NCBI GenBank assembly: GCA_020081605.1
Contig: JAHREC010000045.1
Span: 2,604,001-2,668,000, forward strand
DNA from: Albifimbria verrucaria
Lineage: Eukaryota > Ascomycota > Sordariomycetes > Hypocreales > Stachybotryaceae
Length of the DNA stretch: 64,000 nucleotides
Direction of reading: 5' to 3'
Shown here: piece by piece, positions 9,691 to 59,400 of the stretch
How positions within the stretch are numbered: the first letter of the stretch is position 1
Layout: each line of letters starts with the position of its first letter
Program-made: the position numbers and the translations under genes
Notes under the pieces: model-generated
Seen by the model: only the letters and a program-made list of their open reading frames with translations
Database searches by the model: none
What the model was told of the DNA's origin: nothing

Positions 9691-11262
9691 ATGTCGTGCG
9701 CCATCATAATGCGTCTCGTCATTGCCTTAATCTCGCAAGGGTTTCTCGCCCTTGCGGTTCGCGCTGCTGGTTCTCTCACTGACTGTCTTCGTACTGCTGC
9801 GGTTCCAATCGCTTCCTCAGCCCCTACATCATACAATATCCGTCTTCCCTACAAACCAGTCGCCGTCGCAGTCCCCACATCGACTTCTCAGATCGCGTCT
9901 GCAGTGTCGTGTGGCGCTAAATATGCGGTCAGAATAACCGCCAAGAGCGGTGGCCATAGCTACACCTCCTCAAGCTTTGGTGGAGAGGACGGCCACCTGG
10001 TCATTAACTTGGATCGCATGTATGCTGTGACAGTTGCAAGTGATGGTACTGCTAAAGTCCAAAGCGGTGCAAGGCTCGGTCATGTTGCGACTGAATTGTA
10101 CAGACAAGGAAAGAGGGCAATTTCACATGGCACATGCCCAGGGTATGTTGGATTTCCCAATCCACTAGTTCAAATCGCGATATGCCTGGTCATAGCTAAG
10201 TCAAAAGCAGTGTTGGCATCGGAGGTCATGCCCTCCATGGAGGACATGGCATCGTCTCACGAAAGTATGGCCTTACTACAGACTGGATAAAAAGCGCGAC
10301 TGTTGTTCTCGCCAATGGTACTATAACACGCTGCTCAGCAACTGAACGACCAAATTTATTCTGGGCGATCCGGGGTGCAGGTTCGTCCATGGCAATTGTG
10401 GCAGAGATCGAGTTCAACACTTTCGCCGCTCCTAACAACATAACATATTTCGATATTGACCTCGTATGGGATGTCAAGAAAGCCCCTCAGGTTCTCCTGG
10501 ATGCTCAGGAGTTTGCAAAGGGCATGCCTGCAGAGCTAATCACGTCTGTGACATTCAACAATGATGGCTACTACCTCCGTGGGGCATATGTAGGCGGAGA
10601 TGCTCCTTTTCGAACAGCAATCCAACCGCTTCTTAACAAGCTGGGGACCAAAGTCTCTAGTGCAAAGACGGTCGGATGGATGGATTCTATCACGCATTTT
10701 GCGGGCACGGCAGAAATTGACATAACCACACCTACCTATAATGAGGTATGCAATCCGCTTCTGGCATTGACTTTCGCTGACGATCCAAGCACGAGAACTT
10801 TTATGCTTCAAGTATCACAACACCTGCACTATTGAAAACTCATTTTCAATCTCTCGTCAACGCTATTGATAAGATTGGCTTCACTACGAGCCGCACTTGG
10901 TTCATGCATATGAATTTTCTTGGTGGCCAGTACTCAGCGATAACTCGACCTAAATCCAACGATACTGCCTACGTTCACCGGGATGAGATGCTCCTTTTCC
11001 AGCTGTATGACGGCGTTCCACTAAGTCAAAAGTATCCATCAGATGGGTTTTCAATGCTGCAAGGATTCAGGCAAAGCATTACTAACGGACTGAATGTCAA
11101 CGAATGGGGAATGTATGCCAGCTATCCTGATTCGGAGGTGAGTGGAAGCGATGCGCCAAGGTTGTACTGGGGAAAAATTTGGCAAGGCTGGAACGGATCA
11201 AGAAAGATTATGATCCAGGTAACGTGATAAGGTACCGTCAGTCTATTAAGCCTGCAGAGTAA
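9691..11262 (+). CDS. AA7 family oligosaccharide oxidase (berberine bridge-like FAD oxidase), secreted
   Basis: Three exons (9691-10142, 10211-10745, 10790-11262) give about 486 residues. The ATG at 9691 or the one at 9709 leads into a signal peptide ([19 protein letters not shown]). The FAD_binding_4 domain shows SGGHSYTS with the flavin-linking His and HGTCPGVGIGGH with the second, cysteinyl flavin site, as in glucooligosaccharide and chitooligosaccharide oxidases. The C-terminal BBE segment ends in a YDPGN motif followed by R-Y. Family members oxidise the C1 hydroxyl of sugars to lactones and produce hydrogen peroxide. The frame is offset once near the end, at the A run 11173-11177, where one missing A restores the DPGN ending. 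Its neighbours are sugar-acid genes, so a role in extracellular glycan oxidation fits. Confidence 0.8.
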
Positions 11263-48950: not shown

Positions 48951-50440
48951 TCACAGACTAATTTCACTAGATCCTAGACCTAACCTATGGTTTAGAAGAT
49001 GGAAAATGCAGATACGTAATTCGACCTGACCTATGTCCAAGAACAAGGGTGCCTCCATACAAGGCTGCGCATGTAGGCCTGTAATCGGGCGGAAGCCAGA
49101 GGAGATGCTCTGCCCCCGACTGACCCAATTCTCGCTGATAGTTAGACCATCAACGTCTTTTTCCACCAAAGCCTGTCCTGGTACCTGCGTAATCGTGTCT
49201 GGCGCAGTTGTTGCTTTATTCGCCTCCAATGGTTTTATGGGACTGGTCCAACCTCCCACCCGTCTTTTCCCTTGCCGATTGTGAACAACACCAGTAAAGA
49301 GTTTGGAGTCCAGCTTATCTGACTCTGATTCTGCTTTTCTGACTGTAGCCAAGCCGGCTTTTTGGAGATACATCTCAAAACCGGACAATAGAGGCTCTAG
49401 AGTGTCTGGTACACGCGATAGCAAAGTAAACATACGTATCATGTCTTCCTCGCAATCGTTATCTAGGAGATCCTTGAATTCGGCTTGAAACTTGCTAGAT
49501 GATTTAGCAATCAGCGATTCGTTACATGTTGATCTTAGATGGGGTGCAGTGTCGACATGTAGGTATATTCGCACTCGCTCCTCTTCTTCATCGAGCCGTT
49601 GCTGGACTTTTTTCATGTATGTGTCGATTCTCTCTCTCGCAAGCTCATTCCTTTCCGAGTCATAGAATCGACCTGTTTCTTTAGGAACGGGGCTTCAAAA
49701 TGTTTTTGATACACTTGAAGAGTTTGAGTGTGGCCTTCTCCGGAGAATCCTATGAGACATAGCGATTCTATGAATGACTTGATGTGTCCATGATCAACCT
49801 TTGAACCTCTTCTCTGCTCTTCAATCAGTCTCAAAGTCGTATTTACGACCTTTTCAGAGATTTGGAAGAAAAACACATCCCGCCATTGAACTAGATGCAA
49901 CGTTTTGATAAAGTATATCTGCATTCTGCCTTCGTCTTGTTCACGTTGCACCCAGTGGCGATTAAGATATCGAAAGATATGGTTTATATAGTCAGCGGCC
50001 AAGACAAAGCGGCTCCATTCTCGTACATAGAAAGCAAGTAAGGCGTTTTCAGTGTAATGGTGAGATTCAATAACCAGTTGCTCGAGATGAAGACTTATAT
50101 GATCACGAAGATTCATGTAGAGGTCTTCACCAACTAGGTGAGCTAAGATAGCATATTAAAAACATATTTAATACTACATGCATAAGGACAAGACTCACCT
50201 CCAACCCGAGATGAAATAAACTTTTCATAATCATAGGTTCTTGAAAAGGTACAATAGTCATGGATAATGCTAATGAACCGCAGTTAGATTAGCCTCGCAC
50301 ACACAAAAGATTTCTCTTACCTGTTCATGTTCATATACTGTGGATGTGTAATTAGTACCTATCGTGTCAACGTAGCTCTACAAACGATATGAACAGGTAC
50401 GCACCGTAGTAAGATCTACGCCACCCTTCGGATTGGACAT
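48951..50440 (-). CDS. Truncated cullin-1 (Cdc53) paralogue, N-terminal repeats only
   Basis: The start is the ATG at 50440 (MSNPKGGVDLTTV), with short introns before the main exon at 50116. Cullin repeat motifs are clear: FRYLNRHWVQREQDEGR, YFIKTLHLVQWRDVF and later RMFTLLSRVPDTLEPLL. After about residue 300 the likeness stops (KLDSKLFTGVVHN...), and the frame ends at 48951, only 121 bp from the next gene. The cullin homology domain, the RING (Rbx1) contact surface and the neddylation Lys region are missing. A normal cullin-1 is about 750 residues. As a fragment it could still bind a Skp1-like adaptor, so dominant interference is possible, or it is a dying copy. One offset lies near 49680-49682. 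Confidence 0.7.
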
Positions 50441-50509: not shown

Positions 50510-53500
50510 CTAGCTTGTTTGTAACTCACCAATTTTCAAGATCCACCACATTATCGGGTCTGGGGGCATCCCTTCAGTCCTATTTCGTGCAACTGGAGGT
50601 TTCTGCTGTACCGCCTCTGGATCTACAATCCAGTTCTTCGTCGTATTGTCATCAGAAGAAGATGTGAGGATACTCCCATCCGGTGAGAAGTGGATGGTTC
50701 TGACCCAGTCGCGGTGACCTTCAAAGGTATCTTTATGCTCTCCGCTGCTAATATTCCAGAGTCGTATCCTCCAGTCGCTTGCTGAAGATGCGAGTAATTC
50801 CCCATTTGGCGAGAAATCAACAGCTAGTACATAGCCACTGTGGCCAGTAAGAACCTTGTGTAGTATACCGCCATCGGCATGCCATAGACGAACTTCTTGA
50901 TCGCTTGAAGCTGACGCCAGCAGTCTCGAATCGGGCGAAAAGGCGATACCCAAAATCTGACCTGAATGACCTTCTAGAGTATGTTTAGGAGCACCTGTTC
51001 TGGTCTCCCACACTTTGATGGCTGTGTCGCTGGAAGCTGAAGCGACGCTCTCTCCATCTGTAGAAAAAGCAACCGCATTAACACAAGCGAAATGATGGTT
51101 GGGCTCAAGAACATGAGGTATCTTGGAGGTATCCCACAACCTTATAGTGCAATCGCTTGAGCCTGATGCTAGAACGGTGCTGTCGGGTGAGAAGGCTGTG
51201 GTGTTAACCCAGTCACGATGGCCTTCTAACTTCTCAGCAATGCCTGACTTGATATCCCACAGTTGGACTGATCCATCGTTCGAGGCAGATGCAATCACCT
51301 GGCCATCATGAGAAAACACAACCGAGTTGACGGAATCGCGATGACCAGTAAACTCCTTGCAAACACCTGTGGTAAGATCCCACAGCCGGATTAAATGGTC
51401 GCTTGAAGCAGAAGCCAGCATGTGGCCGTCTGGCGAGAATGCAACTGCGTTGACCAAGTTGAAGTAGCCCGTCAAAGTCTTCACGGAAGCTCTTGAATGA
51501 ACTTCCCATAACCGGACAGTTTGATCATTTGAACCCGAAGCAAGCACTTGGCCATCGGGTGAAAAGGCAAGGGTAGTCACAGGACCATTATGGCATTCTG
51601 ATATCTCAACATGAGATCTGCTGGCAATACTCCATAAGCGTATCGTCCGATCGCCAGAACCTGACGCAACGAGATTGCCATTGGGCGAGAAGACGACGGA
51701 ATTTACCCAGTCTTTGTGACCTTCAAGAGTACATATAATAGCATTCTTATCGATGTTCCAAAGTCGTACAGTCCGATCACTACCTCCAGAGGCTAGCAGT
51801 CTGCTATTGGGTGAGAAGTCAAGGGAAAGTACATAGCCCGAATGACCCCTCAAAGTTTTCTTGTAGGCGCCGGTGTCGCCGTCCCATATTCGTATGGTCC
51901 GGTCACTGGAAGAAGACGCGAGACGTTTACCGTTGGAAGAAAATGCAACGGCAGTGACAGGACGATGATGACCTTCCAATATCTGAAGGCATGAGTCCCA
52001 AGCCTCTCGAATGCCCACTGCTGTCGGTATCTGATGGGCTCTCTGCTCCCAGAATCGCTTTTTCACCGCGCTCGTCTGTGGAGAGAATGTAAGAGCAGCA
52101 CCGTAAATTTGCAACAGGGCACGCTCAATGATTGACTGGAAGCTAATGATAAATCTTTCGGCATCTTTCAGAAACGAGATTAGAGTTGTGTTTGTGGTAT
52201 ATGCTGACTGCTAGTTGTTAGAGTTGTATCTTGGATCTCCTAGGACGACCTACTTCAACTTTCCTGCGGAGCTTTCTAACAGAGACGGAACCTTCCGCAA
52301 GTTTTCGCAGAAGACTTAGACTCTCTAGCCAGTACAGGAAATGGCTTTGCAGAAACTCAGATACTCGACCATTCTCAGAAAGGATATCCAAATGACTGAG
52401 CACTGCCTCACATGCATGATCAATCCAATATACGCAGGAGTACCCAGCCACAGCCAAAGGATCTGGATCAGGAGTTGTAGGATTATCGACAGATCCAAGT
52501 GTGCTTAAATCATAGATATCACGCTTCAATTTCTCGAAAAGTATATCTAGTGATGATGTGAACACAGAATGATGGACGCTGGTGTCTCCGTCTGGGAATA
52601 CCGAATTGAATGCATCATTGGTCAGGAAATCTTTGGCTGATTGGTGAATGATATAGACGCTGTCATCGCGGATCGTGAGAAAAGAACTGCATAGTTCCAC
52701 AATCCTTATAATCGATAGGGGTTTCTCAGAAATTTGCTTTGGTAAACCTGACAGTGTGCCCAACTCTCTTAAACGGAGTGGCCGGTATGCCACGGTAATG
52801 GTTGCTAGTAACATTCGACACAAGGCTGGCTGATCTCGTTTTAAGTCTTGTATTTGCCTCATCATGCGAGCATAAACCTGTTTCAAATCTGTCGGCATCT
52901 CGTCGATCACATCTAATGCTTCCCAACTCTCGACATCTCTTAGCTCCTTGACCACAAGAGACACCCATAGAAAGGTCCCATTGGCTTTTTCATGCATTTT
53001 CTCTCGAATCTGCTGCTGGAGATTCTTGTCATCTTGGATAGATGAAAGCTCTGACACGCTATGTCGGATATACGTGTCAACAGCCTGAGACACACACTCT
53101 GCGTTTTCTTTCAGTTCTAAACTCAACCTCAGTCGTGATACATCCACTCGAAGCTTGCGCTCAATATCAGGCCTGTTTCGACTGGAGACAATCCACTTGA
53201 GTCGTTTCGACAATGATGAAGTCTGATCAATGAGATCCAACAGCTGTGGTAGCCCGATCTCGCATTCATCAAGTGCGTCTATAATGAGGTAGATTGTGTT
53301 CGATTTGAGGGCTTGTAAGATATTGATGAATATTTCCGAAAGGGCAATCCATGAATTTTCATCTTCGAACAACTTTTTCCCAGCATGTTCATACTTTTTT
53401 CTAACATGCGATAGTAAAGATTGCTGTTGTTCTACCAGAAGGTATATCAGACCGCAGAGCACAGATGTGGCGTTATTGATTCTCGAGTCGGTGCCTTGGC

Positions 53501-53884
53501 AAAAGAAGAAGGAGAGCAGTGGAGTGAGACTTGGATCTACCAGTTTTGTCATGGATCGCAAGTGGTCGATAATGCCACAGAGAAGCATTGTTTTCCCTTG
53601 CCAGCATCACCTTTTACCCACAACAGACTGCACTGTTTGTCATCTCGCCAGTGTCGAAAGTCATTGTGGTCAATAATCCACATGTATGAGTCTTTTAGAA
53701 GGCCGCCCTTGGTCTCCTCAATACGCGTTTTATCATCCCGCGGATCTGTGGTCCGCAGATCAGCGATACACCGATCCTCTGTCTGATAGATACTGATGTT
53801 GTCTCCAACGTGAGCACTGACACGTGCATTATCCTGGCCATCGACCTTAATATTACCAGCAGTATTTGAAGAGGCTGCCATCAT
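50510..53884 (-). CDS. NACHT-WD40 STAND receptor (NWD2-like) with N-terminal amyloid motif
   Basis: Two exons (52254-53884, 50510-52207) with a 46-nt intron (CTAAC branch) give about 1,109 residues. Residues 10-32 hold a HET-s-type amyloid motif, GNIKVDGQDNARV then a Val-Gly-Asp-Asn turn. The NACHT domain has Walker A GDAGKGK-T (near residues 92-99), Walker B YLIIDALDE (about residue 200) and helix ATGTFLW-like ANGTFLWVSLV. The C terminus carries 11 WD40 repeats. Such receptors oligomerise after ligand binding and template a partner with the same motif. The frame is offset once, at the T run 53591-53594 inside Walker A. The divergent neighbour is the HET-S-like gene at 55243. Cytosolic. The stop at 50510 is taken at face value. 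Confidence 0.85.
50590..51985 (-). repeat. Eleven WD40 repeats of the NLR
   Basis: Eleven units of about 42 codons, each with a G-H...V..(V/L).FSP.G...AS...D..(I/V)RLW frame. They differ clearly from one another at most positions. These are diverged repeats, unlike the near-identical WD40 repeats of rapidly evolving het genes. Confidence 0.8.
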
Positions 53885-55242
53885 TCATGGATGGAAATGT
53901 CTGAGTCGATTTTTGAGACAATGTCTCCTCGTCTTGATCTGACCCCCACTGCCTTATGTGAGGGGCGGCAAGGGTGTTCACTTGGTGCCGTTGCAAATGA
54001 TAACCGCCAATACACGTGCAATCGATGGACAGTAGTGGGCAGAATAGTACGAATCAAAGTTCCCGTCCTTGTACTGCAACAATGAACTGGTTATGGCAGA
54101 ATAACAATCACGCGATGATGTGTTGATTCCTGAGTGTGCAAAAACGCTAAATTTCAGCCTCAATTCAGCTGAGCATGGGGACCAATAGTCAGTGAAATTC
54201 ATTTTCGATAGTTGCAATTAACTCCCACTATGTACTTTGGAGAGTATGCGGCTGTATGTAGATCAAGCCATGTGTAGCTGAAAATACAGCCGTATTTACA
54301 CATCCGCCATGTGATCTGCAGCGGCGGCAAGGTTAAGTATCACCATGCCCTCATGTCAAGAAGCGTAGTGGGAATGATGGCTGCTACTGCTATTGAGTAC
54401 ATATACCTAAACAATGCGAAACGGCGAGGGGTCGGGGCGGGAAGCCAGCCTTGGGGAAGATCCCGCAGCTAAGACAGTAGGATTGGTGAGCCATCTTATG
54501 GCGCCTACTCTTGCACTAGTTTCAAGACGGAATTTTAAAACGATTTCTGTCCATTCTCACAGACAACTGAGTAAAAAGAAGAAGACTGGGTCTTGTACTT
54601 CTCCTAATCAAGGTCTTATTCAGGATGATAAGTTAGTACAGGACAGGAAAAGAACAGCAGAGCATACTTAAATGAGTATTCACTTAATGTAACTGTTTCA
54701 TTTGAACAAAGTTGTAATACATGTCAGTTATCATTATCACTTATTCGTGCTGGCGACTGCCATCTTATTACTACCCACGGCAGCTACCTAAAGCAGCTTT
54801 TGGGACCTAATTTGGTACTATGAAACTTACATTCTGACTCAACTTAACGCTTATTGCTACAGCGATTGCAGCTACTATTTTACAGGGGCCACAACCAACG
54901 GCAGCCGCTATAGCGAGAACTGTTCAGTCAACGAACTTGAACTTGGCAGAATGAAGAGAAAACCGACGTCGAAAAGAACATGCCTGCTAGATTATGTCTA
55001 CTGTCAATATAAGTGATCCAGACCCAAGTTAGAATGCACCTGTGGAATGCAGAGTTCCTTTAGCTTGTAAAATGGTGGCTGAACCAGTCGGAAAGTTCAC
55101 ACCCTTAATCTGGTAACACAACCATCTCCTCTTGTTTCGCGATAACTGCATAATAGCATGTGACTTTTTCTTAGCTGAGGCTGATGTGCTTCCCCACGTT
55201 TCCTACTCAATCTCCGAGTCAATCCAAGTCAAGCAGCCCAAC
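53885..55242. promoter_or_regulatory. Divergent intergenic region of the NLR / HET-S-like pair
   Basis: 1.36 kb between two divergent start codons, with no supported gene. Only an 85-codon frame near 54414-54671 is open, and it has no motif. It presumably carries both promoters. Confidence 0.4.
54250..54293. repeat. Short inverted repeat
   Basis: Nine-base arms (CGGCTGTAT and ATACAGCCG) 26 bp apart in the divergent promoter. It could be a regulator-binding palindrome or chance. Confidence 0.3.
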
Positions 55243-56102
55243 ATGGCAGAAATCTTCGGCACCGTGGCCAGCGCTTTGAGCGTTGCCGCTCTCTTCAACA
55301 ATTGTGTGGATTGCTTCGAATACATTCAGCTTGGCCGCCATTTTGGAAAGGATTTCGAACGGTGCCAGCTGAGAATTGATATTGCGAAAACGCGTTTGAG
55401 CAGATGGGGTCAAGCCGTCAACATTAACGATCCCTTGAAAGAACCCCAGTTTGACACAGCGTCGCCAGATGATCCTGCAGTTCAACAAGTCAAGTCAATC
55501 TTGGAAGAAATTGCCCTCCTATTTCAAAGTATCCAGAAGACATCGGAGCGGTATAAACTCAAGTCAAAGCAGGAAGATCTAGTATGCTTCCAGGATGAGG
55601 ACATGTCATCAGTTGGACAAACCGTGCATGGCCGACTTGAGACTATTACTCGCCAGAGGCAGAAACGCACAGGCATCTTCAAGAAGGCAGCATGGGCATT
55701 GTACGACGGGAAGCATTTCGAAAAATTAATAGGAGAGATTATAATTTTCATGGGTGAGCTGGAAGAACTCTACCCCTGGAGAGCGCCATCCAAGGTCTGG
55801 TGATAGAAGAGGTTGGCCAGGTAGATGACGAGCCCAGCCTTTTAGCTCTGCAAGATGCCGCTGTTGACACCGATGCCGTCTTCTCTGATGTTGTGGCGCA
55901 GAAGGTCTTGGATATTGCTGGCAGAAACTCTGCCAAAGAAATCAAATCGATGGATACGGCAAAAGTGCTTGTTGGAGGCAAATGGAGTGAGGCAGCATTA
56001 AGGGGTGGCACAAGAGGACTGTCTGACCGCACTGAGAATGCGGCCGGTTCTATAACAGCAAGTGGGAAATCTGCTGTCCAAATTGGAAATCAATATGGAT
56101 GA
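55243..56102 (+). CDS. HET-S-like protein: HeLo domain plus C-terminal amyloid repeats
   Basis: The ATG is at 55243, single exon, about 286 residues, close to the Podospora HET-S/s length. The first ~225 residues are a HeLo domain: a hydrophobic N-terminal segment (AEIFGTVASALSVAALF), then NNCVDCFEYIQLGRHFG. The C terminus holds two 21-residue-type amyloid repeats ending DTAKVLVGGKW and SGKSAVQIGNQYG. When the repeats template into a beta-solenoid, the HeLo domain becomes able to insert into membranes and kill the cell. The partner is the divergent NLR gene. The frame is offset at the C run 55773-55776, so as sequenced the two halves are in different frames. Either an assembly under-call or a null allele; a similar break occurs in most genes here. 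Confidence 0.85.
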
Positions 56103-56465: not shown

Positions 56466-59400
56466 TCAACCTGTCTTATTATACTTGCCTAGAACCTTGA
56501 TCTGCGGCGTCTTGAAAACATCCCAATTATCAGCAGACTTAGGATTTCCGAACGGCCGAAGGGTCGCGAAACGAATCCTAAAAAAGTCAGCTATCATGCA
56601 AAGAATAAGATTCAATGAGAGAGTAGGTTTCAAACTTACGTGTAGGTACCCGGCTCAATTTGACTGCCATTGCCCAACTTTCCAAACCACCAGAACTCGT
56701 GATAAGAATTCTGTGTCTGTGCATTACGGAAGAGGTCAATTTGAGGGTAGGTCCATGTGTCATCAGGATCATCATATCGAAGGTCAATCCAATTGACCGA
56801 TCCGGCGCCGACCCAAGAGGTGGCAGGACCAATATAGCCATTTTGACCCGGCACAGGAGGATACTCCCAATTACGTTCTGACCAACCAGCCTCATAAACC
56901 TGTAATTATTAGAACATGAAAAGCAAAGTATCTGTGCTTGGGGAAGAGGCCTTACATCCCAGCGAACTTCCTTAGTTCCCCATATGATCTTGGAGTAAAT
57001 CTTCGGGAAATCCTGCTCGTTCGAGGAGAGGTCGAAGGTATAACTATGGTTTGTCAGTGGTTATAGGAGGCTTTGATCACATGTCGCACGTACTTCGACT
57101 TGTCTTGAATACTGATAAACCTCACATTAGATCGTGAAAACGGGTAGGTTGTTCGGTATATCGGGCTTAGTTCAGCCTTGAGGTTCGCAGCCAAACCTAG
57201 AGAATTATTGGCACAGAGTTATAATTGATCATTGAGACAACAAGACCTACCTGAATAAGGAACAGACAGCTGTTCGCCGTTGCTGGCAGAAACGAAAATC
57301 TTGCCACTGTATAGAGGCAAGGCCGAGGAATTCCAACCCAAATTGTTCGGGTTGTTAAAGTTTACCCTGAGATATGTTATTTTATATTCTTTATAGTCCA
57401 AATCTTTAGCACTCACGAAACAGTCTTGCTTTGACCTGGTTTCAAGGTAAACTCCCTTGGAAGGGATACTTGAACAGGCAATGAGATTGGTATTAACTCC
57501 GTGAAGCTTTTGAGTCGTTTCTCGCCAGATGTTGGAGGCAACTCGAACCATCCAGCGGCTTCTACACCTGCAGCTGCGTCATATGACAGCTTGTAAGTGA
57601 TGTCCTTAGAATCACCATTCGTAACAGTAAGGTCATGATAGCGCCTGAAGTAATGAGTATCGTTCAGTGCAAACTTTTCAAAGTTGAGCTCAGTGGTATA
57701 GTTAACCACTTTAAAAGCATTGATGAGACCGTTACCAACTTGAGGAACCGGAGCTGAGAAGCCATAGTCCTTGGCAGTTCCATCTGACCAGGGAAGAGCC
57801 GTCCCACTGGAGATAATTCGTTGATGCAGCTTCTTAGCAAATCCTTTGCCTAAATACAATGTCAACATATGAAGCTTTTAATGATAAGTGAAACTGAAGG
57901 AATAGACTAACCGTGGGTGGCACGTCCACCATGTGCACCAATGTACAAAGCTGCAACACCTGCAACATATGGAGCGGCCATTGAAGTTCCGGACAGCAAG
58001 GCGTATGTGCCATCAAGATAAGTGCTAAAGATCTACAACGAGTTAGATTTATGAATCTTCATAAGTGCGAGTCGATGCTTATACCTGTCCACCGGGAGCA
58101 GCAATATCTGGTTTGATTTGAAGGTCATTGGTGCCACCCCACGAGGTAAAAGTGTTTGGTCGGCCACCTGCGGGATATTCAAGACCTACGACAGCCTCAG
58201 GGTTAGTTGAGAAATCAGCTGTGACATTTCCTCCCGCTTTAATTGTTTCTATGATAGCCTTCCCAGCATCAGCCGTAATGAGACCGATTAGGCCTTCGTC
58301 GCTAGTGGTTCCTGGTGTAATGAGGGGTTCTCATTGTTGTAGATAAGGATGTATTCTGCACCGATTGCGAAAAGATTTTGCTGCTTGATAGTGAAAGTAC
58401 AAGTGCCTCGCCTAACAAGCGGGACTTTGCCCACCAGGCTAGGAGTGCCTTCGGGGTAGGGCTCACAGCCATCAGCAGGGTCGGATGTATCGAAGTTTAG
58501 GGGTACAACAGGCCAGCCAGCTACACTGGAGGGAAGTAGTAAGTCGAAGGTAAATAGCCAGCCTGTATAGTATGTCATCAGATGGTGTTTAAAATGAGCG
58601 CTGAGTAGATTAGACGAACCTTAGTAGTGTTGCTAACTCCGTCAACCGAAAAGGTCAGCTCAAAGGGCGAAGCGGGATACTTCTCCGTTTCGACAGAAGC
58701 GATAGCGAGGACATTTTCGCCAGAAGAGCCGCTGCTACCAAAGAAAGGTCCAGCAGCACCGCTGTTACCGGCACTTATTGTGACAACGACGCCTTCCTCG
58801 ACCAGGCGAGATGCCACTTCAGCCCATGCGCCGGTGCTCCAGCCACTGGGTCCACCTAAGGACAGTTAGGAACAAATCATGAAATACTATATCAAACTTT
58901 CTTACCAATGCTAGCAGTGATGATATCAACCTGCGTATGGTTTAGTTGTTAACTAATCAAAGCCAGTCTAACATGGGAACTTACACCGTCCTCGTGGGCT
59001 TTCAAGAAGGCTTCAACCAAGGTTGCCTCGTCTACACTTCCCTAGAAGTTGTTAGCAGTCATTTTAATTACAATGAATAAGAGCCAACTGACAAGTTGAG
59101 AGAAAACCTTGTACGAATAAACTGACGCTCGTGGTGCAACACCGGTCCAACTACATAAGAGTCAGCAAGGCACGTTAAAACTAAAGCGCAACCACACGAA
59201 CTATTCATTCTCACCCACAATAATTCCTGCCACGTGCGTACCTATAGCATAGTTAGATATAACTGCAGCCAGGTAAAGTGGTTCTTTAATATCTCACCGT
59301 GCCCCTGTAGGTCCAAGGGATCATCATCAGGTGTTTTGGGCTCAGCAGGCCAGACTGCACAAACGCATCAATGGAGTCTGTTCATGTTTTCGGTGGCTGA

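Follow-up and report, generated by a model that had tools for sequence, protein, structure and literature searches.

Heterokaryon incompatibility in Podospora anserina provides the closest described system to the locus treated here. There, het-s and nwd2 are divergent neighbors; the effector combines a HeLo domain with the r1/r2 repeats, and the receptor is a NACHT-WD40 protein that carries an N-terminal r0 motif and no further effector domain (PMC3321046, PMC4344463). The orientation of the two genes varies in other species (PMC3321046). Ligand-induced oligomerization of NWD2 has been proposed to cluster r0 and to template HET-S, and the 21-residue peptide NWD2(3-23) seeds HET-s fibrils, with conversion of 68/68 strains (PMC4344463). 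The activated HET-S protein exposes an N-terminal membrane segment (PMC3531502). Adjacency of receptor and effector is common, as 98 of 155 HeLo-related genes with HET-s-related amyloid motifs (HRAM) adjoin a gene for a NOD-like receptor (NLR) (PMC4518210). We analyzed a 64,000-nucleotide stretch of the Albifimbria verrucaria genome (the window; C33:2604001-2668000 of a 48.4-Mb assembly with 41 contigs, numbered here with a C) that contains such a pair. Its sequence and the analogy with Podospora make it probable that this is an nwd2/het-S-type locus of the canonical HET-s (HRAM1-like) class, acting by amyloid templating.

The receptor gene is located on the minus strand with its start at 53884, and the effector gene on the plus strand with its start at 55243. 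The genes are thus head-to-head with 1358 bases between them, and this intergenic region (53885..55242) is common to both. From the N terminus, the receptor consists of a short N-terminal segment, an NPHP3_N/NACHT domain and WD40 repeats. The effector has a HeLo domain followed by a C-terminal two-repeat HET-s prion-forming domain. Gene content, orientation, and domain and motif homology are direct observations at this locus, and they recovered the coordinates, strands, head-to-head layout, HeLo domain, two C-terminal HET-s repeats, NACHT domain and WD40 repeats that an earlier sequence-only reading had listed. Its assignment to the nwd2/het-S family and its comparison with the divergent layout of Podospora het-s/nwd2 were also right (PMC3321046). 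Presenting the locus as the strongest functional lead overstated its novelty because such a layout is already in print. The designation as a death pair is conjectural where it implies a working unit, since both frames are interrupted in the assembly and the receptor motif that Pfam matches best in this genome is found on another contig (C15, with PF17108). Judged by sequence, the pair is a further and fairly ordinary case of the known nwd2/het-S kind. Its unusual aspects are the lengthened receptor motif and the presence of unlinked receptors with a canonical motif.

The HeLo domain of the effector is encoded by a frame at 55243..55803 (+) (PF14479, E 1.2e-50; phmmer to chain 2wvn, a small s protein, E 2.8e-68). 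The prion-forming domain is encoded by a frame at 55758..56102 (+) (PF11558, E 2.9e-22; phmmer to chain 2kj3, a small s protein, E 1.6e-10). As assembled, the HET-s repeats are therefore in a different frame from the HeLo domain. The frames overlap at 55758..55803 (+), where the frame changes and where the closest effector relative, the intact 293-residue protein P0001, reads straight across the junction. Both repeats are 21 residues long: r1 at 55920..55982 (+, 27.3 bits) and r2 at 56031..56093 (+, 39.0 bits). As in HRAM1 HeLo/NLR pairs, r1 and r2 keep N at position 3, hydrophobic residues at positions 5, 8, 16 and 18, and G at position 19, and the locus also shares the PF11558 match and the adjoining NLR (PMC4518210).

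Residues 23 and 33 of the effector are D and H, with H33 as in HET-S. Chain 2wvo, which we take to be HET-S, differs in having A23 with H33. Among 63 aligned relatives, drawn from the best 120, H33 occurs in 46 and D23 in 45, each being the commonest residue. In Podospora the H33P substitution converts HET-S to the HET-s type, while toxicity of HET-s requires D23A and P33H together (PMC3531502). Because HET-s needs D23A in addition to P33H, the D23/H33 combination found here does not settle toxicity. The residue at position 33 appears to fit a death-competent HET-S rather than a HET-s allele type, which is not proof.

The receptor coding sequence starts with a frame at 53549..53884 (-) that includes the start codon, the r0 motif, a linker and the start of NPHP3_N (PF24883, E 1e-7). 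It continues in a second frame with the NACHT exon at 52254..53606 (-) (PF24883, E 4e-22; PF05729, E 6e-9). The two frames overlap at 53549..53606 (-), where the frame changes at the Walker A motif. An intron of 46 nt at 52208..52253 (-) (GTAGGT...CTAAC...CAG) joins the NACHT exon in frame to the WD40 exon; an alternative 43-nt intron ending at the preceding AG fits too. The WD40-repeat exon at 50510..52207 (-) contains 11 WD40 stretches (PF00400, E 2.9e-126), and TRF found no tandem DNA array in it. A stop codon immediately 5' of the receptor start codon implies that the protein really begins with the motif region, barring an upstream exon.

The r0 motif was located by profile scores at 53801..53869 (-), corresponding to receptor residues 6-28. 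Profiles were built from 213 distinct r1/r2 repeats (112 ungapped r1 and 110 ungapped r2 sequences) cut from the best 120 effector relatives. When gaps were allowed r0 scored 25.6 bits, a value reached by 0/1000 shuffled sequences (mean 10.3, maximum 20.9). Over six combinations of profile and gap setting, the loosest one, with r2, let 1/1000 shuffles reach r0, and the other five none. The gapped score was also not reached by any of 6169 translated DNA segments (maximum 21.1), a set from which we excluded 10 loci with the pair or with the C15/C36 motifs described below, as well as segments carrying the motifs of the pair itself. The gapped profile was applied to 224 NLR N termini, 12 of which reached at least the score of the window receptor, all without insertions. 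With the ungapped r1+r2 profile, 13 NLR relatives scored 12.1-28.7 bits; another five whose N termini are similar gave 6.5-11.6 bits. The N terminus of one relative, P0130, gave 24.5 bits with gaps and likewise had no match to PF17108, which means that a missing Pfam match alone does not exclude a motif. On this sequence evidence the receptor motif is probably real but divergent. The N-terminal amyloid motif claimed from sequence alone thus seems to be present, albeit lengthened, divergent and missed by PF11558 and PF17108.

Several observations weigh against assigning the pair to the canonical HET-s class. Neither PF11558 nor PF17108 matched the window NLR at E<=1, and genome-wide searches with both families at E<=10 did not list it. 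Without gaps, r0 scored 5.8 bits with the r1+r2 profile (4/2000 shuffles as good, and 1475/2000 giving any match), 5.7 bits with the r1 profile (2/2000 shuffles as good) and 1.7 bits with the r2 profile (64/2000). The refuting test set by the earlier reading, a receptor motif at background level, has a mixed outcome: r0 is near background in ungapped comparisons and well clear of it in gapped ones. The motif is four residues longer than the r1/r2 type, and is 25 instead of 21 residues long when compared with Podospora nwd2/het-S; it also aligns with HRAM1 motifs with four extra residues. Their placement is ambiguous, either as two plus two or as one block. Gaps in the first repeat have been reported for a small fraction of effector sequences (PMC4518210). 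None of the linked pairs that we met in the literature consulted had a lengthened r0, but no search was aimed at this feature and absence from print is not claimed. In the effector repeats, positions 6, 11 and 13, which are the salt-bridge positions of HET-s, are K/G, M/S and T/K in r1/r2 without the paired opposite charges of HRAM1 (PMC4518210). Position 20 of r1 is G instead of N. An aromatic C-terminal tail lies outside the effector frame; in HET-s, F286/W287 in this tail are needed for activity, and some natural relatives are without it (PMC4055769). Furthermore, no close NLR accompanied P0001 among the matches listed (best 120), the best identity being 62%. Finally, the assembly breaks both frames, that of the receptor at the Walker A motif.

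Outside the pair, a 21-residue stretch at 10012-10074 (+) scored 16.4 bits with an r0/r1/r2 profile. The maximum over three-frame readings of five shuffled windows was 11.6 bits, and the stretch is probably a chance match.

Database searches yielded 396 relatives of the effector (E<=1e-10) and, for the first 95 residues of the receptor, 110 relatives (E<=0.001); of 7984 NACHT candidates scored, 4799 counted as relatives at E<=1e-30. The best 120 effector and the best 120 NACHT relatives were examined. Named relatives include Fusarium, Ilyonectria and Dactylonectria. Two Fusarium oxysporum cases resemble the window in combining a HET-S-like effector with an r0-bearing NACHT receptor. For P0007/P0130 the longest contig is 2,572,738 bases in both entries and for P0013/P0281 it is 14,177 bases in both; by eye, each combination is presumably on one contig, with order and orientation not visible. 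They differ from the window in that r0 is ungapped, and the effectors are 63% and 62% identical to the window effector, respectively.

Both genes are present, but in this assembly neither forms a single open frame: the receptor is broken at Walker A and the effector between the HeLo and prion domains, and the last effector frame stops 7 residues short of the end of P0001. As a control for such breaks we used nine chaperonin (Cpn60/TCP1) and three cullin genes from the same genome, with matches grouped by eye. This control included 22 of 24 chaperonin-family matches and 9 of 12 cullin matches; the rows dropped were C10:2446695, C41:1256387, one single C15 cullin match and the window's own two cullin matches, which were kept as a local control. 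The 19 junctions comprised 8 with a net -1 shift, 7 of intron size and 4 others that were not counted as breaks. A net -1 break occurred in 6 of the 12 genes, at a rate of 0.42 per kb. Across the pair, with 4189 coding bases, this rate predicts 1.74 breaks, and 2 were seen between pieces, plus the early end. The cullin-like neighbor at 48951-50155 (-) is likewise read in two frames separated by a net -1 break (PF00888 profile positions 33-185 and 181-305 of 620). Since the control genes break at a similar rate, the breaks in the pair say little about function, and they are most likely assembly errors. An intron was considered as the cause of the frame change in the effector and rejected, as GT..AG candidates exist but intact relatives encode protein across them. 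A programmed frameshift is unneeded in view of the similar rate in chaperonin and cullin genes. Decay driven by repeat-induced point mutation (RIP) was rejected because the RIP indices are low.

The assembly in general seems rich in small deletions, to judge from the chaperonin and cullin genes. The recognizable part of the cullin-like neighbor corresponds to just the N-terminal half of a cullin. On the other side of the pair, overlapping frames at 57219-58620 (-) resemble a subtilase-type protease, a label given by reading with no family match. A PA domain (PF02225, E 1.6e-8) is located at 58288-58620 within these frames, and the coding sequence is again split over frames.

The receptor motif was also compared with the rest of the genome. 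At E<=10, PF11558 matched three places: the effector described here and, at C15:5963999 and C36:3550845, the N termini of two further NLRs. PF17108 gave four matches at the same threshold, namely the C15 NLR (32.4 bits, over the cut-off), r2 of the effector and two weak ones. With the ungapped r1/r2 profile, which contains no receptor motifs, C15 scored 24.7 and C36 23.2 bits, compared with 5.8 bits for the window r0. When the motifs of C15 and C36 were built into the profile, they scored 40.4 and 43.6 bits, respectively, versus 12.4 for the window r0. The C36 receptor carries ankyrin repeats, and the C15 receptor is followed by frames that by eye resemble WD repeats. A single PF11558-type effector was found in the genome, and the prion piece of the window matched only itself at E<=1. 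Of 21 HeLo matches, only the window locus had a motif above 12 bits, with about 3.1-3.6 kb read at each other locus. Around the C15 receptor 9.9 kb and around the C36 receptor 9.0 kb were read, and no effector motif of this class, the only one sought, was present; outside the receptor genes these regions cover about 4.5 kb on the upstream side and 1-1.6 kb on the downstream side.

Three HeLo matches, at C34:43583, C37:199700 and C31:39769, have identical scores and lie on contigs of about 150-211 kb; they may be copies of recent origin, situated on small or subtelomeric contigs. Matches resembling the NLR N terminus were seen on C12, C17, C18 and C19 (L029, L031-L035), each with one internal TGA. 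Those on C17, C18 and C19 are placed near-identically, about 44.18 kb from the start, and possibly represent duplicated contig ends.

These data can be read in ways other than as a templating pair. A HET-S-like gene could by chance neighbor an NLR whose N terminus merely resembles the motif: r0 lacks a Pfam match, its ungapped scores are near background, and NLRs of this type are numerous, as the 4799 NACHT relatives show. The gapped comparisons with shuffles and translated segments speak against this explanation, as do the published frequency of linkage (98/155; PMC4518210) and the placement of r0, which like its counterparts in relatives occupies the extreme N terminus before the NACHT linker, and we regard chance adjacency as very improbable. 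The pair might instead be decaying, with true inactivating frameshifts making it a pseudogene pair, perhaps after loss of an incompatibility function. Such decay could account for breaks at Walker A and between the HeLo and prion domains, the lost aromatic tail and the lengthened r0. Identity to P0001 is 95% over the HeLo domain and 81% over the prion part, so that the latter diverges 3.7 times as fast, a ratio inflated somewhat by a few counted residues that fall outside the frame where the piece begins. In 20 control pairs the median ratio was 1.5 (5-95% range 0.91-2.49), and 1/20 reached about 3.7. Furthermore, the window effector was less like outgroups than P0001 in 76/110 comparisons of the prion part and in 62/110 of the HeLo domain. 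Against decay, the break rate equals that of the chaperonin and cullin genes of this assembly, the adjoining cullin-like gene has a net -1 break too, the HeLo domain is 95% identical to that of P0001 and the RIP indices are low. Changes assigned to the window and to P0001 are also similar in number, being 3 versus 3 in HeLo (3 unassigned) and 7 versus 4 in the prion part (10 unassigned). Decay of the pair therefore seems unlikely to us.

The unlinked receptors suggest another division of roles, in which the C15 and C36 NLRs mainly drive the effector and the motif of the adjacent NLR has drifted to a different, lengthened form that seeds poorly or not at all. This would fit the PF17108 match to the C15 but not to the window NLR, the much higher ungapped scores of the C15 and C36 motifs, and a genome in which one PF11558-type effector was found and other HeLo loci lack a motif above 12 bits; signaling between unlinked genes has also been suspected for some HRAM-type motifs (PMC9815663). 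However, the insertions in r0 can also be interpreted as two pairs of residues, an arrangement that could preserve the in/out pattern of a beta-strand. The search for other effectors covered the PF11558-type motif and not HRAM classes 2-5, sigma and PP. A motif could also be concealed by frame breaks, and the flanks read around C15 and C36 were short. As linkage is moreover the commoner arrangement (PMC4518210), we consider a main role of the unlinked receptors rather improbable. A related and equally doubtful idea, prompted by the two unlinked receptors with canonical motifs and the single HET-s-type effector found, is that one HET-S effector may serve several receptors, with the 25-residue r0 of the linked NLR conferring a different or insulated amyloid specificity.

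If the locus acts as an nwd2/het-S-type pair, the course of events can be proposed by homology with Podospora. The NLR would be kept inactive until its WD40 repeats bind a ligand. Oligomerization driven by the NACHT domain would then gather several N-terminal r0 motifs, and the clustered motifs would fold into a beta-solenoid that templates r1/r2 of the HET-S-like protein. The HeLo domain would subsequently free its N-terminal membrane segment and permeabilize the membrane, upon which the cell would die. Ligand sensing, oligomerization, templating and death are all taken over by analogy from the Podospora system.

For work on this genome, the frame-break control warns that a single frameshift in the assembly is poor ground for calling a gene dead. 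To the known nwd2/het-S loci this case adds a linked receptor motif that differs in length from the effector repeats, together with canonical motifs on unlinked receptors. It raises two questions that are testable with short peptides, namely to what extent the HET-s beta-solenoid tolerates a length mismatch in templating and whether one effector can serve several receptors. If the latter were true, a linked receptor-effector pair would have been rewired into a many-to-one network.

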